Positions 1,750-47,780 of a stretch of 47,925 bases of DNA are shown in pieces. Each line of letters opens with the position of its first letter. Position 1 is the first letter of the stretch. Source of the stretch: Elusimicrobiota bacterium (lineage in GTDB: Bacteria > CAYTYR01 > UBA6262); NCBI GenBank assembly GCA_003153935.1, contig PMCA01000030.1:1-47925 (forward strand). Reading direction: 5' to 3'. Under the pieces are notes generated by a model. The model was not told the origin of the DNA. It saw only the letters and a list, made by a program, of their open reading frames with translations, and searched no databases. Made by a program: the position numbers and the translations under genes.

Positions 1750-3593
1750 TGGATTCAATTTTACTTTGGCCCATACTGGTACCCTTGCTTGGCGGTTTGC
1801 TGGTGCTGGCTGTTCCCAGGAGCGTGCGCTTCTGGAAAGAATCTATAACCCTGCTGGCCACCGGAGTGAACCTGTGGCTGGTATGCAGTTTATTTGATAA
1901 GAACCTGTATTATTTCTGGAGCTGGCTTGGTTTTGGCAATATCGAGTTCTCCCTGAGACTCTACCATTTCAGTTCCTTTATTGTCATCGCTGCCGGCGCT
2001 TTTGCTTTCCTCATTGGTCTTTATTCACTGTCCTTCATGAAGTATCGCAATTACCTGCGTCAATTCTACGCGTACCTGCTCTGGTCGCTGGCCCTGGCTA
2101 ACGGCGCGGTGCTGGCGGATAACCTGATAGTATTGCTGTTCTTCCTGGAAGCGTTGCTGATAACATCTTTCGGCTTCATCGCCATCGGTTCTAAAGATTC
2201 CATGAAGACCGCTATCAAAGCTTTTATCATCATGGGCATAACCGATATCTGCCTGATGACCGGCGCTATTATCGCCGGTTATCTGAGCGGCACACTGACC
2301 ATGTCCAATATACATTTGACAGTAAGCGGTTTAGGTGGATTAGCTTTCATATTAATGATGATCGGGGCGATAGCCAAGGGTGGCTCCATGCCGTTCCATA
2401 GCTGGATACCGGATGCGGCCATAGACGCGCCGTTGCCGTTCATGGCTTACATTCCAGCCGCTTTGGAAAAGTTGCTGGGCATATATTTACTGGCCCGGAT
2501 TTGTTTGGATCTGTTCCAACTGCAGGCCGGTTCCTGGGCCAGCATAACACTAATGACCATCGGTGCCATTACTATATTACTGGCGGTAATGATGGCCCTT
2601 ATACAAAAAGATTATAAGCGGCTGTTGTCTTATCACGCGATCAGCCAGGTAGGGTATATGATCCTGGGCGTGGGCACAGCTTTGCCCGTGGGTATTATCG
2701 GCGGCCTGTTCCATATGATCAATCATGCCATGTATAAAAGCTGTCTCTTCCTGACCGGTGGCGCGGTGGAAAAACAAACCGGTACCACCGACCTGTCCAG
2801 GTTAGGCGGTATCGGGCGGAAGATGCCCATAACCTTCGGCGCTTTCATCATCGCGGCCATGGCCATCTCCGGCGTGCCGCCGTTGAACGGCTTCTTCTCC
2901 AAGGAACTGGTTTATGACGGCGCTCTGAAAAGCGGGGCGATCTTTTACCTGGCGGCAGTAGCGGGGTCATTCTTCACCGCGGCTTCATTCCTGAAACTGG
3001 GCCATGCCGCATTCCTGGGCAAGATCAGCGAAGAAAACAAGCAGGTGCGGGAAGCCAGCCCGGTGATGCTGATACCGATGATCGTGATCGCTGCGGGCTG
3101 TATTCTTTTTGGTGTCTATAATTCCTTGCCCCTGCAACATTTGATCCAACCGATACTCTCTGTGAAACAATTAGCCGGCGAACGTTTCGCGGGTTGGCCG
3201 GCCAGCTCTATGCTGGTGGTGGTAACTTGCGTTGTACTGATCGGGGCGCTGATCAATCATTACTATGGCGTAAAAAGCGAAGGCAGCGGGTTAAAAGCGG
3301 TTGACCACATCCATTATGCGCCCGGCTTAAAAGGTATCTACGACCGGGCGGAGAAAAGATATTTCGATCCTTACGATATCGGCTTAAAATTGGCTGGATA
3401 TTTATCGCAAATAACCTGGGGTATCGATAAGGCGGTTGACTGGATATATGAAACCGCGGCCGTTTCCGTTTCATTCTTCGCCGGCCGGAAAGCCCGGGAA
3501 TTGTATAAGGGTTATTACGCCAGTTCTTTAAGCTGGGCCCTGCTGGGGTTCCTGGTAATAGCTTTGTACTTGATGGTTACTCTGAATGGATAG
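1749..3593 (+). CDS. Antiporter-like subunit 2, long NuoL-type with C-terminal extension
   Basis: A 614-residue membrane protein of the same antiporter-like family. Visible channel residues are Glu134 (FFLEALL), Lys210 in AKGGSMPFHSWIPDA, Lys241 in AALEKLLGIY and the Lys of FFSKELV. Unlike its two paralogues it has about 130 extra C-terminal residues that end in a final hydrophobic helix, as in NuoL, whose extension forms the lateral helix bracing the membrane arm. The stretch containing DRAEKRYFDPYDIG is typical of NuoL-like hydrogenase subunits. The ATG overlaps the previous stop by one base. A GGAG Shine-Dalgarno for the following GTG gene lies just after its stop. Confidence 0.92.
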   Translation: MDSILLWPILVPLLGGLLVLAVPRSVRFWKESITLLATGVNLWLVCSLFDKNLYYFWSWLGFGNIEFSLRLYHFSSFIVIAAGAFAFLIGLYSLSFMKYRNYLRQFYAYLLWSLALANGAVLADNLIVLLFFLEALLITSFGFIAIGSKDSMKTAIKAFIIMGITDICLMTGAIIAGYLSGTLTMSNIHLTVSGLGGLAFILMMIGAIAKGGSMPFHSWIPDAAIDAPLPFMAYIPAALEKLLGIYLLARICLDLFQLQAGSWASITLMTIGAITILLAVMMALIQKDYKRLLSYHAISQVGYMILGVGTALPVGIIGGLFHMINHAMYKSCLFLTGGAVEKQTGTTDLSRLGGIGRKMPITFGAFIIAAMAISGVPPLNGFFSKELVYDGALKSGAIFYLAAVAGSFFTAASFLKLGHAAFLGKISEENKQVREASPVMLIPMIVIAAGCILFGVYNSLPLQHLIQPILSVKQLAGERFAGWPASSMLVVVTCVVLIGALINHYYGVKSEGSGLKAVDHIHYAPGLKGIYDRAEKRYFDPYDIGLKLAGYLSQITWGIDKAVDWIYETAAVSVSFFAGRKARELYKGYYASSLSWALLGFLVIALYLMVTLNG

Positions 3594-5046: not shown

Positions 5047-5544
5047 GTGTTAGGCCATTTAAATCTGCTCTTATTAATAATTTTACTGGTTTCGGCTCTC
5101 TGGACGGTTTTAACCAGAAGCCTGATCCGCTCGGCTATCGGCCTGGCTCTGACCAGCGCGGTCCTGGCGGTGATCATTTTCCGTTTAGGTTCTCCACTGG
5201 CGGCGGTTTGCGAATTGTCCGTATGCGCCGGGTTGATACCAGTTCTCTTCGTCAGTACCATCAGCCTGACCCATCCCCGCACTCAGGCCGAGAAACTGGA
5301 GCACCGGCGCGGGCGCTTGAAAAGATTTATATTCCTGCCCTTTGTGGCGCTGGGCCTCGGTTTATTCCTGAGCTTGATGAAACTGCCGCTCAATATACCG
5401 TCACCTTTGGCGCAAAGAGTATATGACGTCAGGGAAGTGATCTGGAATATGCGTTCCCTGGACCTGATAGGCCAAGTTATCATATTCCTGGCGGGAGTGT
5501 TCGGCGTGGTTATATTGCTTAAGGAGATAAAGAGCCATGAATAG
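5047..5544 (+). CDS. NuoJ / MbhD-MrpB-like membrane subunit
   Basis: A 165-residue protein with about five hydrophobic segments and a basic loop around residues 80-92. The segment AVCELSVCAGLIPVLFV, with Glu56, resembles the DUF4040/NuoJ motif where a buried Glu followed by Gly sits in a helix of the proton path. It starts with GTG, using the AGGAGG inside the end of the previous gene as ribosome binding site. It overlaps the NuoK-like gene by 8 bases. The family assignment rests on this motif, size, helix pattern and its place directly before a NuoK-like subunit; NuoJ and MbhD/MrpB are distant relatives and I cannot separate them by eye. Confidence 0.78.
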   Translation: MLGHLNLLLLIILLVSALWTVLTRSLIRSAIGLALTSAVLAVIIFRLGSPLAAVCELSVCAGLIPVLFVSTISLTHPRTQAEKLEHRRGRLKRFIFLPFVALGLGLFLSLMKLPLNIPSPLAQRVYDVREVIWNMRSLDLIGQVIIFLAGVFGVVILLKEIKSHE

Positions 5545-5875
5545 CGCCTTGTTACCAATGTTCTGGCCGTTCTGTATATTTGTGCTGATGATACTGGTCA
5601 TTGGTTTTTACTGCATACTGGTCACTTATAACCTGATCCGGGCCTTGATCGGGGTGGAACTGCTGATGAAGGCGGCTACCTTACTATTGATCCTGGTCGG
5701 TTATATTACCGGACAGACCGCCCTGGCCCAGTCCCTGGTGATCACGCTGATAGTGGTGGAAGTGGTGGTGATGGTCGTCGCCGCCGGCATCATCCTGCGT
5801 ATCTACAGCCATACTGATTCAGTGGATGTACGAGACCTGTTAAAATTAAAGGATAAGGATAAAACCAATGCCTAG
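5537..5875 (+). CDS. NuoK/MrpC/HyfE-like membrane subunit
   Basis: A 112-residue protein with three transmembrane helices, the size of NuoK. The two hallmark buried glutamates are present with NuoK-like spacing: Glu41 in LIGVELLMKA (TM2) and Glu75 in VVEVVVMVVAAG (TM3), close to Glu36 and Glu72 of E. coli NuoK. In that family these carry protons between the antiporter modules and the NuoH heel. It has a short charged C-terminal tail (KLKDKDK). It overlaps both neighbours by 8 bases, so it is surely part of the operon. Confidence 0.9.
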   Translation: MNSALLPMFWPFCIFVLMILVIGFYCILVTYNLIRALIGVELLMKAATLLLILVGYITGQTALAQSLVITLIVVEVVVMVVAAGIILRIYSHTDSVDVRDLLKLKDKDKTNA

Positions 5876-6203
5876 CTTGTTATTGTCACCGCCGGCGGCC
5901 TTCATTATTCTGTTGCTGGTCATCCTGGTGGTGGCGAGTTTACTGTCCAAACTGGCTTTTAAACCGGCCAAACATTCGGAAGCCGAGACCAAGCCCTATG
6001 CCTGCGGCGAAGACGATTACGACGCCCGGGTACAGCCGGATTACAGCAGTTTCTTCCCGTTCGCGTTTTTCTTCACCCTGGCGCACGTGGCCACACTGAT
6101 CCTGGCCATTATACCGGCGGTCAGCCTGACGACCCTGATCCTGGCTGGCATCTATATCGAGGGCGCGGTGGTAGCGTTATTTATTCTATACAGGAAGTGG
6201 TAA
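5868..6203 (+). CDS. NuoA-like membrane subunit
   Basis: A 111-residue protein with three hydrophobic helices (about 10-32, 60-82 and 85-106). Between helices 1 and 2 lies KPYACGED, which matches the conserved YECG loop of NuoA (complex I subunit 3), the loop that touches the quinone-site region at the junction of the two arms. Small energy-converting hydrogenases of the Ech type have no NuoA-like subunit, so its presence puts this complex nearer to complex I in composition. It starts inside the NuoK-like gene (8-base overlap) and ends 4 bases before the small subunit. Confidence 0.8.
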   Translation: MPSLLLSPPAAFIILLLVILVVASLLSKLAFKPAKHSEAETKPYACGEDDYDARVQPDYSSFFPFAFFFTLAHVATLILAIIPAVSLTTLILAGIYIEGAVVALFILYRKW

Positions 6204-6207
6204 TATA

Positions 6208-6645
6208 ATGGATATGGTAAAAAAGATCGTAACCTGGGCGCGTATTAAATCCCCCTGGATACTGCATTTCAATACCGGCGCCTGCAACGCCTGCGATATC
6301 GAATTGATCGCGGCGCTGACGCCGCGTTATGACGTGGAGAGGTTCGGTATACAACTGAAGAGCACGCCTCGTCACGCGGATGTCCTGGTGTGTTCCGGTC
6401 CCGTGACCCGGCAGATCGAGGACCGGCTGGTCCGCATCTACGAACAGATGGCTCAGCCAAAATTCGTGGTGGCGGTGGGCACCTGCGCCTGCAGCGGCGG
6501 AGTGTTCAAAGGTTGTTATAATATCAAGTCTGGCATAGATCAGGTCATACCCGTGGCTGCGTATATTCCCGGCTGCCCGGCCAGCCCCAAGGCGATCATC
6601 GACGGGGTAGTAAAGCTGCTGGCGACCCTGGACGAAAAGAAATAG
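6208..6645 (+). CDS. [NiFe] hydrogenase small subunit, NuoB-like (group 4)
   Basis: A 145-residue soluble protein of the NuoB/hydrogenase small-subunit family that holds the proximal [4Fe-4S] cluster. The ligands are Cys26 and Cys29 in TGACNACD, Cys93 in GTCACSGG and Cys123 in IPGCPASP. The CxxC spacing of the first pair is the form of energy-converting hydrogenases, while complex I NuoB has two adjacent cysteines. There is no Tat signal or C-terminal anchor, so it faces the cytoplasm and docks through the NuoH/NuoI-like subunits. It follows the NuoA-like gene by 4 bases and precedes the NuoC-like gene by 9. Confidence 0.95.
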   Translation: MDMVKKIVTWARIKSPWILHFNTGACNACDIELIAALTPRYDVERFGIQLKSTPRHADVLVCSGPVTRQIEDRLVRIYEQMAQPKFVVAVGTCACSGGVFKGCYNIKSGIDQVIPVAAYIPGCPASPKAIIDGVVKLLATLDEKK

Positions 6646-6654
6646 GAGAAGATC

Positions 6655-7119
6655 ATGAGCGTGGAAGAAAAAATTAAACAGGAATTGTTAGCCAAATTCA
6701 CGAATATTGCTGCCGACCAGGTCAGGATACAACGCGCGCGGCGCATCTTCGCCGACGTTCCGCTGGATGATTTTTTCAGCGTGCTGGATTACCTGATTAA
6801 GCAGCAGAAGTTCACCCAACTGTCCGCTATCACCGGTATGGATGAAATGGACAAGATAACGCTGGTGTATCACCTGGCTCATGAAACGGGAATAGTTTTT
6901 AATTTAAAGGTCGCCATCGCGCGGCTGAACCCGGTTATGAAAACCGTCATCGCTTATTACCCCAGCGCGGAAATATACGAACGTGAGATCATGGACCTGC
7001 TCGGGGTGCAATTTGAGGGTTTGCCGGAAGGCCGCCGTTATCCCTTGCCGGATGAATGGCCGGCGGGGCAGCACCCGTTATTAAAGGATTGGGATCCGTC
7101 AATACTGGACAAGAAATAG
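6655..7119 (+). CDS. NuoC-like 30-kDa subunit of the membrane hydrogenase
   Basis: A 154-residue soluble subunit. The C-terminal half has the signature of the complex I 30-kDa family: AEIYEREIMDLLGVQFEG, then RRYPLPDEWP and HPLLKDW. It is a separate gene, not fused to the large subunit as in HyfG or HycE. The Shine-Dalgarno is AGGAG 5 bases before the ATG. It is followed by the only sizeable gap (55 bases) in the operon, which contains a small hairpin and T-run before the large-subunit gene. Confidence 0.92.
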   Translation: MSVEEKIKQELLAKFTNIAADQVRIQRARRIFADVPLDDFFSVLDYLIKQQKFTQLSAITGMDEMDKITLVYHLAHETGIVFNLKVAIARLNPVMKTVIAYYPSAEIYEREIMDLLGVQFEGLPEGRRYPLPDEWPAGQHPLLKDWDPSILDKK

Positions 7120-7126
7120 ACAGTTA

Positions 7127-7157
7127 CGAGTTGACGAAGGAAACTCGCAAACTTTTT
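7127..7157 (+). promoter_or_regulatory. Hairpin plus T-run inside the hydrogenase operon
   Basis: The arms CGAGTT (7127-7132) and AACTCG (7142-7147) pair around a 9-base loop, and TTTTT follows at 7153-7157. It lies in the only real gap of the operon, directly before the Shine-Dalgarno TTAAGGAG of the large-subunit gene. The stem is short, so this could be a weak attenuator, an mRNA processing or stability element, or chance. Confidence 0.3.
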
Positions 7158-7174
7158 GTGTTAAGGAGTATATC

Positions 7175-8404
7175 ATGGCTGAAAAAAGGAAATTTACCAT
7201 ACCGATAGGACCTCAGCACCCGGCTTTAAAAGAGCCGGAGAGCTTTAGCGTCGCCCTGAAAGGCGAGAAGATACTGGGCGTGGAGATCAAGCTCGGTTAC
7301 AACCACCGGGGCCTGGAAAAAGCCTGCGAAAGCCGGACCTTTATCCAGGATATTTACTTGATCGAGCGCATTTGCGGTATCTGTTCCCATTCGCATTCCA
7401 CCTGTTTCATCCAGGCGGTGGAAGAGATCGCCGGCTTGCAGATACCGGCCCGGGCCAACTATATCCGCACCCTGGTAGGGGAACTTGAGCGCGTGCACAG
7501 CCACCTGTTGTGGCTGGGCGTAGCGGGACACGAGATCGGCTTTGACACCCTGCTCATGTATTCCTGGCGCGACCGGGAAGTGGTCATGGATGTTCTGGCG
7601 GAACTGACCGGGAACCGGGTCAACTACGGCATTAATACTATCGGCGGGGTACGGAGAGATATTTCCGAGGAACAGATCAAAGAGACCGCTAAAGCGATCG
7701 ACATCCTGGAAGAAAGAACCAAATATTACGTGGAAGTGGCCCAGCAGGAAACCACCATTATTAAAAGATTGTCCGGAGTGGGAGTGCTGAAACATGATGA
7801 CGCCTTGCGGTTAGGCGCGGTCGGACCGACGGCGCGCGCTTCCAACATCGCCAGGGACATCCGCAAGGACGATCCCTACGCGGCTTACGCCGAACTGGAC
7901 TTCAAAGTGATCACCGATAACCATGAAGATATATACGGACGCACAGTAGTGCGCCTGCTGGAACTGATGGAATCATATAAAATTATTCGCCAGGTGCTGG
8001 AGAAGTTGCCGGCCGGAGATATTTGCGTGAAAGCGCCGCGCAAGATACCGGCGGGAGAAGCTTTATCCCGCTATGAAGCTCCGCGCGGGGAAGATATGCA
8101 TTATGTTAAAGCTAACGGTACGGAGAAACCGGACCGGGTCAAAGTCCGCGCCCCAACTCTGGCCAACGTCCAATCGGTCAAGACCATGTTGCAGGACCGT
8201 AACCTGGCGGATATGCCGATCGTGATCGCCGCCATCGACCCATGTTTTTCCTGCACCGACCGGATGACTCAGGTCACCGACCTGGCTGACAACAGCCGTC
8301 AGGTCTGGGACTGGGAGAAACTGCGTTCGCACGGAATTGAATGGTACCGTCAGCGCGGCGTGGATTTCACCGCCTTGAATAATAAACTTAAGCAAAGGTT
8401 GTAA
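7175..8404 (+). CDS. [NiFe] hydrogenase large (catalytic) subunit, group 4, NuoD-like
   Basis: The 409-residue catalytic subunit of a membrane-bound energy-converting hydrogenase. Both nickel-iron ligand pairs are intact: Cys67 and Cys70 in ERICGICSHSHS, and Cys357 and Cys360 in DPCFSCTDR. Complex I NuoD and the hydrogenase-related Ehr complexes lack these cysteines, so this is a true hydrogenase. The group-4 form GELERVHSHLLWLG is also seen. After DPCFSCTDR there is a 46-residue tail starting at Met364, comparable to the tail removed from HycE by HycI; a HycI-like protease lies three genes downstream. The ATG has a strong TTAAGGAG ribosome site. The complex probably couples ferredoxin oxidation to H2 release and ion pumping, or the reverse. 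Confidence 0.96.
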   Translation: MAEKRKFTIPIGPQHPALKEPESFSVALKGEKILGVEIKLGYNHRGLEKACESRTFIQDIYLIERICGICSHSHSTCFIQAVEEIAGLQIPARANYIRTLVGELERVHSHLLWLGVAGHEIGFDTLLMYSWRDREVVMDVLAELTGNRVNYGINTIGGVRRDISEEQIKETAKAIDILEERTKYYVEVAQQETTIIKRLSGVGVLKHDDALRLGAVGPTARASNIARDIRKDDPYAAYAELDFKVITDNHEDIYGRTVVRLLELMESYKIIRQVLEKLPAGDICVKAPRKIPAGEALSRYEAPRGEDMHYVKANGTEKPDRVKVRAPTLANVQSVKTMLQDRNLADMPIVIAAIDPCFSCTDRMTQVTDLADNSRQVWDWEKLRSHGIEWYRQRGVDFTALNNKLKQRL

Positions 8405-8408
8405 ATTA

Positions 8409-9347
8409 ATGATCAAAGAATTATTTTACCTGCTGATCTTTCCGGGATTCCTGTTCATCAGCGCGTTCGCCCTGGCCGGCGAATACATTGACCGGAAGCT
8501 TTACGCCCGGTTCCAGAACCGGGTGGGGCCCCCCTGGTTCCAGCCGTTGGCGGATCTTATAAAACTGCTGGCCAAAGAAGATATTGTTCCGTGTGACGCC
8601 AATGCCAATATGTTCAAGTTGGTGCCGGTTTTCGCCTTGACGGCGGCAGTGGCCTCTATAATTTACATTCCGCTCTGGCAATCCAGTTCAATATATTCTT
8701 TCCCGGGCGACGTGATAGTGGTCCTGTACCTGCTGACCATCCCGACCTTGTGCTTTTTCATGGGTGGCTGGTATTCCACGTCTTTATTCGCGCGCATCGG
8801 TTCGGTACGGACACTGACGCAGTTATTCGCCTATGAAGTGCCTCTCTTTATGAGCATTCTTTCGGCTGCCGTCCTGGCGGACAGCTGGTCTATAAAAGAT
8901 ATCGTAAACTTTTACAACTCTCATCCGGGATACCTGTTATTCAACGGGATCGGTTTTGTGGTCTCCATGATCGCCCTACTGGGAAAACTGGAGAAAACAC
9001 CCTTTGACATACCGGAAGCGGAAACCGAGATCGTGGCCGGCAGTTTCACCGAATACAGCGGCCGCTTATTGGCCATCTTCCGGCTGACCCTGGATATAGA
9101 GATGGTAGTGGGAGCAGCGCTGATATCGGCTATTTTCATTCCCTTCGGACTGAACTTCAGCCCAGTACCGGCTTTCATTATAACCGTCATCAAGATCGAG
9201 CTGGTCATTGCTATGCTCTCTCTGGCCCGCACCATCTTCGCGCGTTTGCGGATAGACCAGATGGTAAACTTCTGCTGGAAATACGTGGTGCCCCTGGCCC
9301 TGACACAGTTATTGATAAACTTCTTAATAAAAGGATTTTTTAGATGA
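8409..9347 (+). CDS. NuoH/HyfC/EchB-like membrane anchor subunit
   Basis: A 312-residue membrane protein with about eight helices. The loop YARFQNRVGPPWFQPLADLIKL (residues 32-53) and the later TPFDIPEAETEIVAG carry the conserved charged residues of the NuoH family, which links the soluble arm to the pumping arm and lines the first proton channel. It starts 4 bases after the large-subunit stop and ends with a 4-base ATGA overlap with the NuoI-like gene. Confidence 0.95.
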   Translation: MIKELFYLLIFPGFLFISAFALAGEYIDRKLYARFQNRVGPPWFQPLADLIKLLAKEDIVPCDANANMFKLVPVFALTAAVASIIYIPLWQSSSIYSFPGDVIVVLYLLTIPTLCFFMGGWYSTSLFARIGSVRTLTQLFAYEVPLFMSILSAAVLADSWSIKDIVNFYNSHPGYLLFNGIGFVVSMIALLGKLEKTPFDIPEAETEIVAGSFTEYSGRLLAIFRLTLDIEMVVGAALISAIFIPFGLNFSPVPAFIITVIKIELVIAMLSLARTIFARLRIDQMVNFCWKYVVPLALTQLLINFLIKGFFR

Positions 9348-9700
9348 TCAATCCCGGGAAAATGCTTAAAGAAGTACTGTGTTCTCTTTTTCGTAAGCCG
9401 GTGACTGTCCTCTATCCGCATGTGAAGATGGAAATGCCAGTCGGATTCCGGGGCGCGATCAAGTTCTCACCGGATAAATGCAGCGGCTGCAAACTTTGCA
9501 TGCGGGACTGCCCGACCAACGCCATCACCATCAACAAGGTTGGGGAAAAGCAGTTTGAATGCGAGATTGACTTAGGCAAATGCATTTATTGCGGGCAATG
9601 CGTGGACTCCTGTTTCAAAAAAGCCCTGGAAGTTACCAGGGACATGGAACTGGCCCAAGCCGGCAAGAACAAAGGCAAACTGAAAGTAACCCACCGTTAG
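9344..9700 (+). CDS. NuoI/HyfH-like 2[4Fe-4S] ferredoxin subunit
   Basis: A 118-residue electron-transfer subunit with two complete CxxCxxCxxxC cluster motifs: Cys46, 49, 52, 56 (CSGCKLCMRDCP) and Cys80, 83, 86, 90 (CIYCGQCVDSC). In this family the clusters pass electrons from a soluble donor such as ferredoxin to the small subunit. No NADH-binding subunits (NuoE, F, G) are present in the operon, which fits a ferredoxin-linked complex. It overlaps the NuoH-like gene by 4 bases and is followed after 9 bases by the maturation protease. Confidence 0.95.
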   Translation: MINPGKMLKEVLCSLFRKPVTVLYPHVKMEMPVGFRGAIKFSPDKCSGCKLCMRDCPTNAITINKVGEKQFECEIDLGKCIYCGQCVDSCFKKALEVTRDMELAQAGKNKGKLKVTHR

Positions 9701-25501: not shown

Positions 25502-25556
25502 GACATCATGGGTTTCGAAATAAGCGAAAGAAACCTTGGTTCGAAACCCAGATGTC
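25502..25556. terminator. Long imperfect hairpin between glnN and the glycosidase gene
   Basis: The left arm 25502-25519 (GACATCATGGGTTTCGAA) pairs with 25540-25556 with a single bulged base, giving 17 pairs around a 20-base loop. No T-run follows, so it may act as an mRNA 3' stabiliser, an attenuator or a protein-binding site rather than a classical terminator. Confidence 0.5.
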
Positions 25557-25599
25557 TCGGCGAAATCAACCCTTCGCCTACTATATTAGTGGGGGGAAT

Positions 25600-26799
25600 A
25601 TGAAACGGATAGCAGCGGTACTTTTAACCTTAATGCTGTTGTTGGCGAGTGTCAATTTATGGGCCCGGGACAAGATCGAGGTCGTCAAGAATGTGTTGGG
25701 ACAGTACCAGCTGCTGGTGAACGGGCAACTATATTTTATCCGCGGGATGGTTTACCAGCCCATACCGGCCGGGCAGAACCGCGATTATAACTGGTGGGGC
25801 GATGCCAACCGGCCCTGGCTGGCTGATGGCGAGAGAATGAAAAACGCCGGGATCAATACGGTGCGCTTCTACCAGCCCGGTGAAAATATCCCGCAGACCA
25901 AACGGGTGATATCCGACCTGTACAAGAACTTCGATATCCGCTGCGTCATGGGGCATTGGCTGGATTGGTCTGAGGCGGATTACGCCAATCCCAAATTCCA
26001 GGACCAGGTCATGCAGGAAGTTTGCCAGATGGTGGTTATCTATAAAGATACTCCCGGCATCCTGATGTGGGTGCTGGGCAATGAGAACAATTATTCTTTC
26101 GCCGGACAGAAGATAAATTACTGGACCAGCGCGGAGTTGGAAAGGATCAAGGACCCGTACCAGAAAAGGATGGCGCAGGCCAAGATCTATTACCAGTTCG
26201 TCAATAAGCTGGCTAAGCAGATTAAAAAGATCGACCCGGATCACCCGGTGGTATTGGGCAACGGAGACCTAGCCACGGTTTCCGTGGCGGCTAAATGCGG
26301 CTCCAATATCGATATACTGGGTTCGAATTGTTACCGGGGCAAGAGTTTCGGAAATTTCTGGCGGGAAGTGGACCGGGAATGGAAAAAACCTGTATTATTG
26401 CTGGAATTCGGCTGCGACGCTTATGATGCCTATAAGAAAAGAGAGGACCAGCAAACCCAGGCCGAATTTGCCCGTAAACAATGGCAGGAGATCGCGGAAA
26501 ACGCCTGCGGCGGATTGGGATTTGGCAATTCCCTGGGCGGTTTCCAGTTCGAGTTTATGGATGAATGGTGGAAGTGCGATGGGGCGCCCACGGCTGAACA
26601 TGACACGGATGGTACCTGGTCCAACGCCGCCTACTGGCGTGATATTAAAGCGGATAATAACATGAATATGAACGAGGAATGGTGGGGGATTGTGGCCCAG
26701 GATACCGGGACCATCGTCAACGGGAACTATGCCCGGGTGCCTAGGTTGGCTTATTATATGTTGGCGGAAATATTCACCGGCAAAAAGATAAATAAATGA
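25600..26799 (+). CDS. Secreted clan GH-A glycoside hydrolase (GH2/GH72-like TIM barrel)
   Basis: An exported protein of 399 residues: signal peptide to about residue 23 (LWARDK). The barrel segments are LYFIRGMVYQPIP, NTVRFYQPG, the acid/base Glu162 in LGNENN and the nucleophile Glu269 in LLLEFGCDAY, the pattern of clan GH-A families such as GH2, GH5 and GH72 (beta-1,3-glucanosyltransferases). The C-terminal part has many Trp residues (DEWWKCDG, NEEWWGI) that suit sugar stacking. ATG 25600 is chosen because it begins the signal peptide and follows GGGGGGAAT; the longer frame from 25552 would start in the hairpin. Substrate is not predicted. Confidence 0.8.
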   Translation: MKRIAAVLLTLMLLLASVNLWARDKIEVVKNVLGQYQLLVNGQLYFIRGMVYQPIPAGQNRDYNWWGDANRPWLADGERMKNAGINTVRFYQPGENIPQTKRVISDLYKNFDIRCVMGHWLDWSEADYANPKFQDQVMQEVCQMVVIYKDTPGILMWVLGNENNYSFAGQKINYWTSAELERIKDPYQKRMAQAKIYYQFVNKLAKQIKKIDPDHPVVLGNGDLATVSVAAKCGSNIDILGSNCYRGKSFGNFWREVDREWKKPVLLLEFGCDAYDAYKKREDQQTQAEFARKQWQEIAENACGGLGFGNSLGGFQFEFMDEWWKCDGAPTAEHDTDGTWSNAAYWRDIKADNNMNMNEEWWGIVAQDTGTIVNGNYARVPRLAYYMLAEIFTGKKINK

Positions 26800-26808
26800 G
26801 GTATTCCC

Positions 26809-27234
26809 ATGAAGAATCCTAAAGATGACCTGTTTGACGAATTTGGCGTGAAATCTTTTGAGATAAATAGGATCGTCAGCCAGATCCTGAGAGCGAAAAC
26901 GCCGCCGCGCATGAGTTGCCAGTTAAAGTGGGCCCCGCCCGTTGATGTCTATGAAACCTCTACGGAGATAGTCATCAACCTGGAAGTGCCGGGTATAAAG
27001 GTGAAGGAACTGGAAGTGGGATGGCGAGATAATATATTGTGCATCCGCGGCCGGCGCAGGGACAGCCATAACTCCGGCAAGGTGAATTATTACCAGATGG
27101 AGATCCATTACGGCGATTTTGAAAAGCTGGTCATTTTACCGGCGTCGGTAGCCGGTGCTAAATGCAAACCTTTTTACCAGGATGGGTTCCTGCAGATAGT
27201 ATTGCCGAAAGCAGACCATAAAAAAATTAGATAG
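26809..27234 (+). CDS. Small heat-shock protein, Hsp20/alpha-crystallin family
   Basis: A 141-residue holdase chaperone. The alpha-crystallin domain spans about 40-134: PPVDVYETSTEIVINLEVPG, LCIRGRRR, then the signature AGAKCKPFYQDGFLQIVLPK (consensus A.y..GvL.i.lPK). The C-terminal I-x-I/V oligomer motif is not obvious. It lies 9 bases after the glycosidase stop and 9 bases before lon, so this chaperone and protease pair is probably co-transcribed and stress-related. Confidence 0.92.
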   Translation: MKNPKDDLFDEFGVKSFEINRIVSQILRAKTPPRMSCQLKWAPPVDVYETSTEIVINLEVPGIKVKELEVGWRDNILCIRGRRRDSHNSGKVNYYQMEIHYGDFEKLVILPASVAGAKCKPFYQDGFLQIVLPKADHKKIR

Positions 27235-27243
27235 AGGTGAACG

Positions 27244-29568
27244 ATGTCCGAAGATAAACGCATAGACCTACCAAATGAAGTGCCGATATTGCCGGTTCGC
27301 GATACGGTTTTTTATCCTTTCGTGGTCAGCCCGATCGTCGTGGGACGGGAAAAGTCCATCCGGCTGGTTGATGACGCTTTGCTCAAGGATAAGATCATCG
27401 GCTTGTTCACCCAGAAAGATGCCCAGGTTGAGGATCCCCAGGTTACCGATCTTTATGACATGGGGACTATGGCCTTGATCCTCAAGATGTTGAAGTTTCC
27501 TGACGGTTCACTGCGCCTGATCGTGCAGGGACTGGGTCGGGCTAAGCTGAAAGGCATCGTACAGGCGGAGCCGTACCTCAAAGGACGCGTGGATATCCAG
27601 GAAGAAGTGGAAGAAAAGAGTATCGAGATCGAAGCCATGATGCGCAATATGATCACCCTGTTCCAAAAACTGGTTTCGCTGGCGCCGTACCTGAGCGAAG
27701 AAGTTTACATCGCCGCGATGAATATCGATTCCCCTAACAAACTGTGCGATTTTATCGCTTCCAACCTTAACTTGGATATCAAGATCAAGCAGGAGATATT
27801 AGAGACGACCGAGGTCAGAAAAAGATTGCAACGCCTGACCCTATTCCTAAACGAAGAATTGGAAGTGCTGGAACTGGGCAGTAAGATTCAGTCTCAGGTG
27901 CGCACCGAAGTGGATCGCGCGCAGAAAGAATTTTTCCTGCGCAAGCAGATGGAAGCGATCCAACGGGAGCTGGGAGAGGGCGATGAAAAAACGTTGGAGA
28001 TCAATGAGCTGAGGATCAAGATCAAGGAAGCCAAGATGCCGCCGGAAGTGGAAAAGGAAGCAGACCGGGAATTAATGCGCCTGGCTAAGATGCCACTGGC
28101 CGCGGCCGAATATACGGTCAGCCGTACCTACCTGGACTGGCTGATCGCGCTGCCCTGGAACCGGAGCACAACCGATATGCTGGATATCCCAGCGGCCAGG
28201 CAGATACTGGAAGACGACCATTACGGTCTGGAGAAAGTCAAGCAGCGTATCCTGGAATACCTGGCGGTGCGCAAACTCCGGCCGGAAGCCAAGGGTCCTA
28301 TCCTGTGTTTCATCGGTCCGCCGGGCACGGGAAAAACTTCGCTCGGGCGTTCCATCGCGCACGCCCTGGGCCGTAAGTTCATGCGTATTTCACTGGGCGG
28401 GATCAGGGATGAAGCGGAGATCCGCGGGCACCGCCGTACTTATGTCGGCAGCCTGCCGGGGCGCATCATCCAGGGTATTAGGAGAGCGGAAACTAATAAC
28501 CCGGTCTTCATGCTCGACGAGATCGACAAGATCGGCGAGGATTTCCGGGGCGATCCTTCCAGCGCACTGCTGGAGGTACTGGACCCGGAACAGAATAATA
28601 CTTTTTCGGACCATTACCTGGACGTGCCCTTTGACCTGTCTAAGGTGATGTTCATTGCCACCGGCAACATCATGGATCCGATACCGCCTGCTTTGCGCGA
28701 CCGTATGGAAATACTGGAATTGCCCGGCTATACCCAAAGGGAAAAATTGCTGATAGCGCAGAAATACCTGATACCGCGCCAAACCCGGGAGCAGGGGTTG
28801 ACCGCTGATAACGTGGAACTGAGCGATGACGCAGTCCTGAAGATCATTAATAATTATACCCGCGAAGCAGGCTTGCGTAATCTCGAAAGGGAGATCGCCG
28901 GCGTTTGCCGCAAGGTAGCTACCAGAGTGGCGGAGGGACATAAAGAAAAGATCCTGGTCACGGATAAAAATATACAGGAATTCCTGGGTCCGATTAAATT
29001 TATCATGGAGATCGCGGAGAAGAAGGATTCCATCGGGGTCGCCACCGGCATGGCCTGGACGCCGATGGGCGGCGAGATCCTGTTCGTAGAATCCACCAAA
29101 ATGCGCGGCAGCAAGGGTTTGACCCTGACCGGACAGCTCGGCGATGTCATGAAGGAATCGGCTCAGGCGGCCCTGAGCTACATACGCTCGCACGCCAAAG
29201 AGTTGAATATTGCCGAAGACTTTTTTGAAACCATGGATATTCACGTGCATGTGCCGGCTGGCGCCATACCCAAGGATGGCCCTTCGGCCGGGGTGACCAT
29301 GGCGACCTCACTGGTCTCCTTATTGACCGATCGTCCCGTCAAACACGACCTGGCGATGACCGGCGAGATCACTTTGCGCGGCGATGTCCTGCCGATAGGC
29401 GGCATCAAGGAAAAAGTTCTGGCGGCGCAACTGGCGGGTATCACCACCATCGTACTGCCTAAACAAAATGAAGGCGACCTGGAAGACATCCCGCAGGAGA
29501 TACGGGAGAAAATGAAATTCATCAAGGTAGAGAGATTGGACGACGTGCTTAAAGTCGCCCTGATCTAA
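27244..29568 (+). CDS. lon: ATP-dependent Lon protease (LonA)
   Basis: A 774-residue cytoplasmic AAA+ protease of usual LonA length. An N-terminal substrate domain (1-200, [14 protein letters not shown]) and coiled coil lead to the ATPase with Walker A GPPGTGKT (358-365), Walker [12 protein letters not shown] and arginine fingers, then the protease domain with the catalytic dyad Ser681 (DGPSAG) and Lys724 ([10 protein letters not shown]). The ribosome site is GAGGTGA. It follows hsp20 and is followed after 19 bases by the degenerate archaemetzincin. Confidence 0.97.
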
Positions 29569-29587
29569 TAATATATTCCGGACGGAT

Positions 29588-30136
29588 ATGATAAAAATCA
29601 GCCTGGTCCCTATCGGTAATATAGAGGAAAGGATCCTGTGTTTCCTACAGGCGCAGTTACCGGTAAAGCTAAAAGCCGGAAACCTGGAAATAAAGCTGCG
29701 GCCGGCTTGGTCGGCGCCGGATCACCGTAAGTTGAAAACCGGCCAGGGCTTAAGCGCGCTGGTATTGGCGGACCTGGCCCGGATAGTGGGACCCGATCTG
29801 GATGAATATGTACTGGCGGTGATCGACGAGGACCTTATTGATCCCGCCATCGAATATGTTTTAGCCGAGACCGCTCCCGCGTTGAGGCTGGGGATCATCT
29901 CCCTGACCCGCCTGCGGCAGGAATTCTACCATTTACCCCCCGAAGAAGAAGTTTTTAAGGCTCGCTTGCTGAAAATAGCCCTGCAAATACTGGGAACGTT
30001 ATGGGGTTTGGCCAGGTGCCAGGACGTTAAGTGCCTGATGGCCCACGGCCGCAATACCCATGAACTGGACCGCAAATATACCGTTTATTGCCTGAACTGC
30101 TGGCCCCTGGTGCAGCGTCGGCTGGGGACGCCATGA
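29588..30136 (+). CDS. Degenerate archaemetzincin-like protein lacking the catalytic zinc site
   Basis: A 182-residue protein. The C-terminal block matches archaemetzincins: WGLARC then four residues, CLM (Cys144, Cys149, Met151), DRK, and CLNC (Cys168, Cys171), which is the CX4CXM...CXXC part of the family motif. The preceding HEXXHXXGXXH, which holds the catalytic zinc, is replaced by QILGTLWGLAR (133-143): the Glu and all three His are gone, while Gly136 and Gly140 remain. No frame shift nearby restores it. It is therefore probably a non-proteolytic relative that still binds a structural zinc. Its first part (EYVLAVIDEDL, LGIISLTRLRQEFY) also fits the family. It lies between lon and a YfhO-like gene. 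Confidence 0.8.
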   Translation: MIKISLVPIGNIEERILCFLQAQLPVKLKAGNLEIKLRPAWSAPDHRKLKTGQGLSALVLADLARIVGPDLDEYVLAVIDEDLIDPAIEYVLAETAPALRLGIISLTRLRQEFYHLPPEEEVFKARLLKIALQILGTLWGLARCQDVKCLMAHGRNTHELDRKYTVYCLNCWPLVQRRLGTP

Positions 30137-32433
30137 ACCGAAAAGAAACTGGTTTTCTCTGGCTCCTGCTGACCCTCCTGTTGATCTTCTTCTCGCGACT
30201 GGTCTTCTGCGGGCAGACCTATTTCCTGGGCGATATCATGAGCTTCTTCCAGCCCTGGACCGTTTTTGGGGCGGAAGGTATCCAGCGCGGCCATTTCTAT
30301 CTATGGAACCCTTATCTCTGCAACGGCGAACCTTTCCTGGCCAATATACAGGTAGCTATGCTGTACCCCTTGAAAATTTTCTTCTATCTGTTCCCTTTTG
30401 CCTGGGCTTTTAAAGCTTACCTGCTGGCGCATTTTTTTCTCTGCTTTCTGTTCCTGTTCCTTTTCCTGAGACAGTTCCGTTTCCATCCCCGGGCCTGTTT
30501 CCTGGGCGCCCTGGTATTCACTTTTTCCGGATATATGCTGGTGCAAATAGAATTCTTCAGCGTGCTGGCCAGCGTGCTCTGGTTCAGCCTGGTCTGGGTG
30601 TTTTTGCGCCGGGCCCTGAATTCCGCCGGAATATTTTACTGGCTGATGTGCAGCCTGGCGCTGGCCCTGCAGTTCTACGGCGGCTATACTTTCCTTTTCT
30701 ATTATACTAACCTGCTGATAATATTTTACGTACTGTGGCAGCGCCAGTGGCGTTTCTGGCCGCGGTTCCTGCTGATGTGGTCTGTGACCGTGGGTTTGAT
30801 CGCGGCGCAACTCCTGCCCACGGTGGAGTTAATGGGGCACGGGATCAGGTCGGCCTGGACGGTCAGCGAGGCCACAACCTGGAGCTTACCGCCGCTGTTC
30901 CTGATCAAATTCATTTTGCCGGACCTGGTCGGCAAGGCCTGTTTGCCCGACTTATTCCCGCAACCGTTCGGCACGGAATATTTTGCCATTAAGCAATATT
31001 GGCTGAGCACCTTCTACCTGGGGATAATGCCCTTATTGTTCCTGGCTTTTTCCTGGCGCGGCAGGAAGAGAGGCTATTTCTGGGAAGCAGTGGCGCTGAT
31101 CAGTTTATTCTTAGCCATGTCGGCGGACTTTCCCGTTACTCGCTATTATTACCAGTATATGCCCCTAGCCAGGAGTTTTACCCATCCGGCTTCATTTATG
31201 TTCTTTTTTATATTTGCCCTGGTCATATTTATCGTGCGCGGCATTGATAATTTCCTGCGGCCCGAATTTCGTCCCAGCCGCAAACTATTCACGGCGGGAC
31301 TGGGCGCTATCACGGCGGGGTACGGATTGATATACCTTATCTTTTATCACCGGCCCTGGCTGCAGTACCTCGCCGGGTTGCTGACCGGACTGGACCTGCA
31401 GGCCAGCCAATGCGTTCACCTGGAGATAAACTTCTTTGAGTTCAGTGTGCGCTTTTTAGCGGCGGGAGCTTTATGGTACTGGTGGTATCGCCAGCGGGGG
31501 CGGGGGCTCGTCTATGGCGTCGTTATAATTTTTATGGCGGTGGATCTTTTTTCATTCGGCTGGGATATAAATCCCCTGGCGCCCAATGATTTTTTCGCTA
31601 TTAAACCCCGGAATGTGACGACGGTCAGGGATAATGTCGGCTCCGGACGCTATTTACTGGATCCGGCCGCACAAACTAACCGCCCTTTATTCGGAGATAG
31701 TTTTGTCGATAAATACCAGAGTTTAAGACAGGCGCTGCAGCCCAACGCGGGATTGCCTTATCACCTGCCTTACGTTTATGAATACGGTTATTTTACCATC
31801 AAGGATTATAAGGACCTGCTGCTGCGTGCCAAGAGTTTTCCTTCCATCATGGATTCCCCGATAATCGATATGCTGGGCGGTCGGCTGATCCTGTCTTATA
31901 CTGAATTAACGCATAAGAAATTGCGGGCGCTGGAGTCCTATTATATAAACTTGTATGAGAACCATAACGCTTTACCCAGATACTGGGTGGTCCACCGGGC
32001 CAAATACCTGCCGCGGGATAAGATCCTGGAATATCTGGCCGGTAAGGATTTCCAGCCCGACCGGGAAGTCGTTCTGATCAGCCAGGCTGGCGAGGCGGCA
32101 CCAGGCCAGGCGCAGTCGGCCCATTTAGCGGATCGCGTGGAAACGGCAGAGACCGGCCCCGATGATATTACTATTGACGTAAATTCTTTCGCTCCCGGCT
32201 GGCTGGTGACCAGCGACGTATATTATCCGGGTTGGCGGGCAACAGTTGATGGAGAGCGGACGGAAATATTGAAAGCCAATTACATCGTCAGGGCCATAGC
32301 GCTAAAGGCGGGCCGGCAACATTTGCGGTTACAATACCGTCCAGCGGCATTTTATGCCGGCTTAGGGATAACCCTGTTCATGCTATTACTGATCAACCTG
32401 CGGGCTATGAGGATAAAAGGGAACTTTTATTAA
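30133..32433 (+). CDS. YfhO-family polytopic membrane protein (GT-C-like glycosyltransferase)
   Basis: A protein of 766 residues with about a dozen helices in the first 490 residues. The luminal loop after TM1 has GDIMSFFQPW and RGHFYLWNPYLCNGEPFLAN, the pattern of YfhO and related GT-C fold enzymes that use lipid-linked sugars to decorate envelope polymers. The soluble C-terminus ends with VYYPGWRATVDGE and a final helix, as in the family. ATG 30133 gives an ATGA overlap with the upstream stop; the open frame from 30088 would add 15 residues. The sugar and acceptor are unknown. Confidence 0.82.
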   Translation: MNRKETGFLWLLLTLLLIFFSRLVFCGQTYFLGDIMSFFQPWTVFGAEGIQRGHFYLWNPYLCNGEPFLANIQVAMLYPLKIFFYLFPFAWAFKAYLLAHFFLCFLFLFLFLRQFRFHPRACFLGALVFTFSGYMLVQIEFFSVLASVLWFSLVWVFLRRALNSAGIFYWLMCSLALALQFYGGYTFLFYYTNLLIIFYVLWQRQWRFWPRFLLMWSVTVGLIAAQLLPTVELMGHGIRSAWTVSEATTWSLPPLFLIKFILPDLVGKACLPDLFPQPFGTEYFAIKQYWLSTFYLGIMPLLFLAFSWRGRKRGYFWEAVALISLFLAMSADFPVTRYYYQYMPLARSFTHPASFMFFFIFALVIFIVRGIDNFLRPEFRPSRKLFTAGLGAITAGYGLIYLIFYHRPWLQYLAGLLTGLDLQASQCVHLEINFFEFSVRFLAAGALWYWWYRQRGRGLVYGVVIIFMAVDLFSFGWDINPLAPNDFFAIKPRNVTTVRDNVGSGRYLLDPAAQTNRPLFGDSFVDKYQSLRQALQPNAGLPYHLPYVYEYGYFTIKDYKDLLLRAKSFPSIMDSPIIDMLGGRLILSYTELTHKKLRALESYYINLYENHNALPRYWVVHRAKYLPRDKILEYLAGKDFQPDREVVLISQAGEAAPGQAQSAHLADRVETAETGPDDITIDVNSFAPGWLVTSDVYYPGWRATVDGERTEILKANYIVRAIALKAGRQHLRLQYRPAAFYAGLGITLFMLLLINLRAMRIKGNFY

Positions 32434-45945: not shown

Positions 45946-45990
45946 TATATTGGGTAAGGTACAAGGTTTTTGGGCAGCAGGGAGTGTGCT

Positions 45991-46467
45991 ATGAAACGGA
46001 GTACCGCGAAATTGAATAGAAGGATCAAGAGACTGTTAAGGAAAGCCATCAGGGTCAAATATAAAGGCTTTACCTTAGTGGAATTATTGATCGTCATAGT
46101 TATCCTGGGTATCCTGGCCGCCATCGTCATCTCCCGTTTTACCGGCGCGACCAAGGATGCTAAGGAAACCTCTCTTAAAGCCAACCTCAGCGGCATGCGC
46201 AGCCAGGTAGAAATCTACCGCGCTCGTTCCGCTTCCGACAGTTATCCCACTAATTTAGCGGCCTTAGTAAACGAAGGCTATATCCGTAAGATCCCGCAGG
46301 ATCCTTTCTACAAGAAAAGCACTGAGTATACTGCTATTCAGGCGGCCGGCGTAGGTGGTTGGGTTTATAACAACAGTACAGGAGCGGTGTACGTTGACAT
46401 ACCCAGTACAGATCCGGTTGAGCCGCCTAAAGATACCAGTTGGGGCACCAGTTATAGTTCCTGGTAA
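45991..46467 (+). CDS. Type IV pilin-like protein 1 (long leader)
   Basis: A prepilin of 158 residues. The leader is unusually long and basic (26 residues, MKRSTAKLNRR...KYKG), cleaved before Phe27 with Glu31 at the +5 position and the class-typical FTLVELLIVIVILGILAA helix. The globular part has IPQDPFYKK, GGWVYN and ends in SWGTSYSSW. It lacks the DRDGK loop of pilins 2 and 3. ATG 45991 is chosen for AGGGAG 6 bases upstream; a TTG at 45970 would add seven residues. Its own promoter separates it from the pilC operon. Confidence 0.9.
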   Translation: MKRSTAKLNRRIKRLLRKAIRVKYKGFTLVELLIVIVILGILAAIVISRFTGATKDAKETSLKANLSGMRSQVEIYRARSASDSYPTNLAALVNEGYIRKIPQDPFYKKSTEYTAIQAAGVGGWVYNNSTGAVYVDIPSTDPVEPPKDTSWGTSYSSW

Positions 46468-46746
46468 TTTTATTAGTTCTTTTTGAGCAGGTTTGATACG
46501 AATTCAAGTTCCAGTTGAAGATAAGATGGGTATCTTTGACAAAAGAATATGACCTTAGGGGTGTAATATGAGGAGCAGTTTGAGGAAGCGGCTTAGTCCA
46601 ACAATCAAAGCTTTAAGACAATTGGGCAAATTGATTGGAGACATAGAGGGCCGCTATTTTTATTGCCAAAGGCTTTACATTTATACGGGTTTGTGTTATA
46701 ATGAACAGCAAGAAAGATTTATATCCCACGAAAGGAGTATATCTAT
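46468..46746 (+). other. 279-base leader region between pilin 1 and pilin 2
   Basis: There is no confirmed gene here. It holds a TTGACA (46536-46541), AGGGG and an ATG (46568) that opens a 61-codon frame with a basic start like the pilin 1 leader, then the consensus promoter of pilin 2 at 46674-46702. The frame may be the remnant of a lost pilin gene's 5' end. Confidence 0.5.
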
Positions 46747-46753
46747 ATGTTAA
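46568..46753 (+). pseudogene. Possible relic of a pilin leader (61 codons)
   Basis: The frame begins MRSSLRKRLSPTIKALRQLG, basic and helical like the long leader of pilin 1 (both have R-S near the start and I-K-x-L), and is preceded by GTGTAATATG, close to GTGTGCTATG at pilin 1. No FTLVE helix follows, and the rest reads like non-coding sequence. It overlaps the pilin 2 start by 7 bases. It could also be a chance frame or a small protein. Confidence 0.25.
46674..46702 (+). promoter_or_regulatory. Consensus sigma70 promoter of pilin 2
   Basis: TTTACA (46674-46679) and a perfect TATAAT (46697-46702) are 17 bases apart. The leader is about 38 bases, with AAAGGAG before ATG 46747. Confidence 0.85.
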
Positions 46754-47244
46754 GTAAATTGAGAAGCAGCAAAGGTTTCACCCTGGTAGAATTGTTGATC
46801 GTTATCGTCATTCTGGGAATTTTGGCGGCAATTGTTATCTCCAGGTTTGCCGGAGCCACCAAGGAATCCAAGGAAGCCAGCTTAAAGGGAGATCTGCGTA
46901 CTATGCGTTCTTCACTGGAAGTGTATAAAAGCTATTCCCAAGCCGGCATCTATCCTGTCTTGCTCGATGATCTCTGGAAAGGCACTAGTGCTGACGTATT
47001 AAGCAAAACTTTCATAGACAAAGTCCCGCAGGATCCTTTTTATAAGAAAAAAACTACGTACAGCGCTTCGGTGGCCTTTAGTCCTACCGATTTAGCTACA
47101 GACCGTGATGGTAAGATCAACGGCGGAGGCGGTTGGGCTTATGATTCAGCTACCGGCAGTATCTGCGCCAATTACAAATCCACGGATACGGTACCTGGAA
47201 CTCCAAGCGACACTAGCTGGGGAACGTCTTATAATATCTGGTAA
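46747..47244 (+). CDS. Type IV pilin-like protein 2
   Basis: A 165-residue prepilin: ten-residue leader MLSKLRSSKG, cleavage before Phe11, Glu15 at +5, and the hydrophobic helix. The globular domain has VPQDPFYKKKT, a loop TDRDGKINGGGGWAYD that resembles a calcium-binding loop of GspG-type pseudopilins, and the end DTSWGTSYNIW. It shares about 75% identity with pilin 3 (hand count over 165 aligned residues, no gaps). It has its own perfect -10 box promoter, so it may be the major subunit, perhaps together with the copies that follow it. Confidence 0.93.
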   Translation: MLSKLRSSKGFTLVELLIVIVILGILAAIVISRFAGATKESKEASLKGDLRTMRSSLEVYKSYSQAGIYPVLLDDLWKGTSADVLSKTFIDKVPQDPFYKKKTTYSASVAFSPTDLATDRDGKINGGGGWAYDSATGSICANYKSTDTVPGTPSDTSWGTSYNIW

Positions 47245-47282
47245 GAACATATAGCTTTGACTGTAAAAGAAGGGGAGGGCAT

Positions 47283-47780
47283 ATGATTAAAAAATTAAGA
47301 AACAGCAAAGGTTTTACCTTGGTAGAATTATTAATAGTCATCGTCATCCTGGGTATTTTAGCGGCTATCGTCATTGCCAGGTTTGCCGGCGCTACCAAGG
47401 AAAGCAAGGAAGCCAGTTTGAAGGGCAACCTGCGCACTATGCGGTCCTCCCTCGAGATATACAAGGCAAATTCAAATGCTAATCTTTACCCGGCTTCTTT
47501 AGACGACCTCTGGAAGGGCACCAACCCCGATGTCCAGAGCAAAACCTTCATTGAAAGAATTCCGGCTGATCCATTCTATAAGAAGAAAACCGTTTACTTG
47601 TCTTCATCCGTGTTTGACCCGACCGATGTTGGTACAGACCGTGATGGCAAGGTCAACGGAGGCGGCGGCTGGGCCTATGATTCCCAGACCGGCCGGGTTT
47701 GCGCCGACTACAAGTCTACCGATTCTACAGTAGGAGCGCCGATAGACACCAGCTGGGGCGGGGCTTATAACGTTTGGTAA
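47283..47780 (+). CDS. Type IV pilin-like protein 3
   Basis: A 165-residue prepilin with leader MIKKLRNSKG, Glu15 at +5, TDRDGKVNGGGGWAYD and the end DTSWGGAYNVW. Differences from pilin 2 are concentrated in the middle (about 60-115) and near the C-terminus, which would be surface-exposed. It lies 38 bases after pilin 2 with GGGGAGGG before the ATG and has no clear promoter of its own, so it is probably co-transcribed with pilin 2. Confidence 0.93.
   Translation: MIKKLRNSKGFTLVELLIVIVILGILAAIVIARFAGATKESKEASLKGNLRTMRSSLEIYKANSNANLYPASLDDLWKGTNPDVQSKTFIERIPADPFYKKKTVYLSSSVFDPTDVGTDRDGKVNGGGGWAYDSQTGRVCADYKSTDSTVGAPIDTSWGGAYNVW
47352..47383 (+). repeat. 32-bp exact repeat in pilin helix region, copy 1
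   Basis: This segment of pilin 3 is identical to 47894-47925 in pilin 4 (542 bases apart). It encodes the end of the hydrophobic pilin helix. The repeat may continue past the window edge. Confidence 0.9.

Follow-up and report, generated by a model that had tools for sequence, protein, structure and literature searches.

The gene at positions 29588 to 30136 of the 47,925-nucleotide stretch of Elusimicrobiota DNA analysed here (the window) is an open frame on the forward strand with an ATG start and a product of 182 amino acids, which we name pAMZ (pseudo-archaemetzincin). With a probability of roughly 0.45, we consider pAMZ to be a catalytically dead archaemetzincin that, stabilised by zinc, serves an Hsp20-Lon stress cassette as an accessory. 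Dead members of this protease family are themselves a known kind, but the pAMZ lineage and its linkage to Lon and Hsp20 appear to be undescribed so far. The source genome is a 1.75-Mb draft, and five genomes of its phylum were compared.

The original prediction of an archaemetzincin relative was borne out by profile searches. The protein matched Pfam PF07998 (Peptidase_M54; E value of 1e-10) at 42.4 bits, above the cut-off of 24.4, and also matched NCBIfam NF033823 (archmetzin; 9e-23, 81.1 bits, below the cut-off of 145) and NF033824 (non-proteolytic archaemetzincin-like; 2.7e-15, 56.6 bits, below the cut-off of 250). A PDB sequence search returned the solved archaemetzincins 2x7m (1.7e-12) and 3lmc (3e-12, reaching 6.7e-17 with a profile of three pAMZ sequences), and profile-profile comparison with eight intact bacterial archaemetzincins gave a probability of 99.8% over 165 columns. 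These E values and the orthologues described below rule out a chance open reading frame, and the gene shares the codon usage of its neighbours. An AlphaFold model built from three sequences was of moderate quality (pLDDT 65, pTM 0.68); its top Foldseek match in the PDB was again 2x7m (E value of 1.2e-4, TM score of 0.54), consistent with a metzincin fold, while the C-terminal cysteine region scored below 50, too low for zinc-site geometry to be judged. Viral contigs searched to deepen the alignment for this model yielded no relatives.

The archaemetzincin fingerprint is HEXXHXXGXXHCX4CXMX17CXXC (PMC3427221). In pAMZ, alignments place QILGTLWGLAR (residues 133-143, positions 29984 to 30016) at the HExxHxxGxxH site, so that all three His and the catalytic Glu are gone, as had been proposed from the sequence alone; Gly140 is retained. 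All six frames of positions 29400 to 30300 are devoid of HExxH, which rules out a frame shift masking an intact site and agrees with the earlier claim. The adjoining Cys4 subdomain with its Met-turn methionine (positions 30017 to 30100) was found to be unbroken, reading C144-X4-C149-X-M151-X16-C168-X2-C171, in line with both the predicted family match and the fingerprint established for AfAmzA (CX4CXMX16-17CX2C). Measured against 44 positions conserved across 29 intact archaemetzincins, pAMZ keeps 0 of the 4 catalytic positions and 26 of the 40 others (Fisher p of 0.02), and the Cys4 zinc subdomain is its best-kept part. When AfAmzA residue numbers were mapped onto pAMZ through the PDB sequence alignment (2x7m/3lmc search), the counterparts of the substrate-edge residues Phe82, Gly83 and Ala85 were also found to be lost, which counts against the former cleft simply binding peptides and favours the Cys4 subdomain, together with the fold, as the working part. 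Judged by its sequence, pAMZ has permanently lost catalysis, with the His triad and the substrate-edge residues both gone.

That the cysteines persist raises the question of whether they are themselves the working part, as a redox or zinc switch in which oxidation or zinc loss under stress would alter the fold and signal to Lon1 or Hsp20. In both dead lineages (pAMZ and that of another phylum, described below), no part is better kept than the Cys4 residues, and oxidation of Cys4 has been proposed, as speculation, to be a regulatory step in AfAmzA. The same cysteines are, however, structural in active enzymes, and we regard such a switch as improbable.

A second M54 gene is present in the same genome (contig G000:C5, locus L002 / L027, positions 8802 to 9395), and its product is 28% identical to pAMZ. 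It shows the reverse pattern, in that HEVGH is kept, with Tyr as third ligand, and the Cys site is gone. It was rejected as an intact counterpart; it is a paralogue and not a functional copy. Its hydrophobic N-terminus resembles a signal peptide.

Orthologues of pAMZ were found directly after lon in two genomes of a second genus (G001 and G003), with 39% identity to the window protein. Two near relatives of the source genome are publicly available, under the names 'Elusimicrobia bacterium UBA6262' and 'bacterium isolate STB_115'. When GTDB contigs were scanned broadly for clade-specific patterns, only the two relatives already known came up. Rather than an intact HEXXH, the orthologues read REIALLLGLSL, retaining Glu and the four Cys but lacking all three His, so that loss of the metal ligands is, on these alignments, the feature common to pAMZ and its orthologues. 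Seventeen conserved positions are kept in all three proteins, including Arg126, Lys129, C144, C149, M151, D161, K163, C168 and C171. Between the G001 and G003 orthologues, which differ by 42 synonymous and 26 nonsynonymous codons, dN/dS (omega) was 0.13 by NG86 (bootstrap 0.077-0.22) and 0.24 by YN00, compared with 0.04-0.06 for the stretch of lon next to it. With His losses in two genera and omega well below 1, the dead form is, as far as sequence comparison can tell, both old and under purifying selection. The selection first proposed from an intact frame and ordinary codons thus stands.

The opposite view, that pAMZ is a former protease in decay and without present function, draws on an identity between the genera of just 39%, where lon1 has 83%, and on the third genome of the second genus (G002), where a deletion has left only about 28 codons of the gene. 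We judge decay highly improbable for the full-length gene, given the low omega between the two species, the invariance of the four Cys, the normal codon usage and the presence of a full-length frame in three genomes, which span two genera. In G002, lon is followed by a 28-codon in-frame remnant, MIKHEINIKYPSYCLDCWPQLNTQISKK (L026, positions 2957 to 3043), whose ATG overlaps the lon stop; in the retained tail, 8 of the 12 codon differences from G001 are synonymous. This remnant may be a relic of decay, or it may have been retained as a C-terminal tail peptide. Either way, G002 has kept lon1 with a mere remnant of pAMZ and no hsp20, indicating that the pAMZ gene can be lost, that Lon1 does not need it and that pAMZ is not an obligate Lon subunit.

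The gene stands last in a conserved run on the forward strand. The run opens with a gene for a putative secreted, glycoside-hydrolase-like protein (positions 25552 to 26799; PF02836, 9.6e-6), a homologue of which lies at positions 5526 to 6773 of locus L019. This is followed after 9 bases by the small heat-shock protein gene hsp20 (positions 26809 to 27234; PF00011, 1.1e-12) and after another 9 bases by lon1 (positions 27244 to 29568; Pfam Lon_C, LON_substr_bdg and AAA), a second Lon paralogue with the motifs GPPGTGK (Walker A), DGPSAG (Ser) and GGIKEK (Lys). Only 19 bases separate lon1 from pAMZ, confirming the predicted adjacency to Lon. Downstream, the ATG of a YfhO-like membrane protein gene (positions 30133 to 32433; PF09586, 1.4e-10) overlaps the pAMZ stop (ATGA); this gene is not conserved at that position in the other genus, where a GAF/PAS histidine kinase gene takes its place (L019 and L020). 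Scans for promoters and terminators gave results at chance level. Elsewhere in the window, positions 45970 to 47780 hold three 165-aa pilin-like genes in succession, whose products begin almost identically (GFTLVELLIVIVILGILAAIVI).

The other Lon gene of the genome, lon2, is 54% identical to lon1 and lies apart, adjoining trigger-factor- and ClpP-like genes in a housekeeping-looking setting, which marks lon1 as the extra copy. A Lon of another phylum (63-65%) is closer to lon1 than lon2 is, so that lon1 may, by its sequence, have been acquired.

The order of the glycoside-hydrolase-like gene, hsp20, lon1 and pAMZ is the same in the window and in G001. Among the genomes compared, just the three that carry full-length pAMZ have a homologue of hsp20; it was absent from G002, including its lon1 contig, and from G004; with only four genomes in the family, this co-occurrence amounts to a single contrast. 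That hsp20 and pAMZ come and go together around lon points to a cassette rather than to Lon alone.

The neighbourhood might nonetheless be incidental, with pAMZ a functional dead archaemetzincin whose role is unrelated to Lon or Hsp20. The linkage is seen in two genera only, each with a different downstream gene, lon occurred in only the two orthologue loci among 80 archaemetzincin loci examined, and the dead family of another phylum adjoins an MrfA-like helicase gene instead. We nevertheless hold this to be unlikely, as the order hsp20-lon-pAMZ has been kept at 39-50% protein identity and as hsp20 and pAMZ are jointly absent where lon1 remains.

If pAMZ is an accessory of the Hsp20-Lon cassette, it would be made from the hsp20-lon1-pAMZ gene run, presumably by co-transcription, and its Cys4 subdomain would bind zinc and so stabilise the protein. 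As a small protein-binding accessory, it might then bind either Lon1 or clients that Hsp20 passes on, and could change, in whichever direction, which substrates Lon1 degrades. This partner and mechanism, including any physical link to Lon1 or Hsp20, are what we infer from the gene order and the conserved residues. A bolder version, which we advance only tentatively, is that a former metalloprotease now has the dedicated task of regulating an AAA+ protease, with pAMZ and Hsp20 steering or activating the second Lon. It would form part of a repeated bacterial trend in which the Cys4 module is kept, catalysis is discarded and the protein is turned to partners (CarG with CarD, the MrfA-linked family, and pAMZ with Lon). 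Archaemetzincins are widespread, and yet we know of no natural substrates for them; a selected Cys4-only lineage paired with Hsp20 and Lon offers a concrete partner to test and, if the assignment is true, would enlarge the small set of known Lon regulators.

The dead family mentioned above belongs to the phylum of genome G013, in which M54 relatives were found in 121 of 133 genomes. Among 20 low-scoring loci sampled, 19 had a degraded catalytic motif with Cys4 kept, and the twentieth (L101) lacked the third His alone. A helicase was encoded by the next gene in most of 21 neighbourhoods, and the member tested has an MrfA Zn-binding (MZB) domain. The family (L045, L089-L108) is nearly phylum-wide and usually lies directly upstream of the MrfA-like helicase gene. 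In a phylogenetic tree, the window clade was separate (100/100) and joined only weakly (70/94), with long branches, to this family, from which we take catalysis to have been lost probably several times in archaemetzincins. Together, pAMZ and this family suggest that a non-catalytic role of the archaemetzincin fold may be commoner than recognised. Separately, six intact bacterial archaemetzincins from several phyla (L047, L051, L052, L054, L055 and L056) were seen to adjoin genes for an NtrC-type response regulator, a membrane histidine kinase or both, and ferredoxin/NrfD-like genes were often near; this suggests a two-component link.

Compared with the dead M54 proteins of that other phylum (L007, L089-L108), pAMZ shares the degraded motif, the invariant Cys4 and the loss of the same edge-strand Phe, but differs in lying away from an MrfA-like helicase gene, in forming its own clade and in having no catalytic His, where many of those proteins keep one or two. 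It resembles AmzA (2x7m, 3lmc, 3zvs/4axq; Peptidase_M54) in sequence, predicted fold and the Cys4-Met fingerprint; unlike AmzA, it lacks every ligand of the catalytic zinc and the counterparts of Phe82 and Ala85, and the window copy lacks the catalytic Glu as well. NF033824 (Myxo_non_zincin) is a family of non-proteolytic archaemetzincin-like proteins which pAMZ matches, although its score falls far short of membership. A strong match to this model (293.9 bits) was observed at L017 / L046, positions 6584 to 7183, with HQAGHLLGLSYC. The gene upstream of this match does not resemble carD, and proteins other than CarG may therefore fall within NF033824.

The small Lon regulators LarA, HspQ and SmiA are tied to Lon as pAMZ appears to be; their interaction with Lon has been demonstrated, whereas that of pAMZ is predicted. 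We know of no sequence relation between them and pAMZ.

To our knowledge, CarG of Myxococcus xanthus is the only characterised dead bacterial archaemetzincin. Like pAMZ, it is a bacterial archaemetzincin relative of about 170-180 amino acids with the four Cys kept. CarG has no protease activity, binds CarD and acts purely by protein binding, and its Cys mutants fail (PMC8156234, PMC3427221). By analogy, pAMZ might be a transcription co-factor that binds a regulator, its place behind lon reflecting stress co-expression only; CarG is monomeric, does not bind DNA and acts through CarD, and the pAMZ profile also matches NF033824. We think this rather unlikely, because CarG keeps all three His and the catalytic zinc, binding two zinc ions (HQx2Hx2Ex2HCx4CxMx16Cx2C), and pAMZ does not keep any of those His. 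Moreover, CarG is coupled to carD, whereas pAMZ lies behind lon in a genome with no stand-alone CarD; the only CarD_TRCF domains of the phylum are in Mfd-sized ORFs (1042-1065 aa), with no stand-alone CarD/CdnL, and a CarD partner for pAMZ was therefore rejected. In being without protease activity and in having its partner encoded in the same operon, CarG is nonetheless one of the known systems to which pAMZ, on its sequence and neighbourhood, may best be likened.
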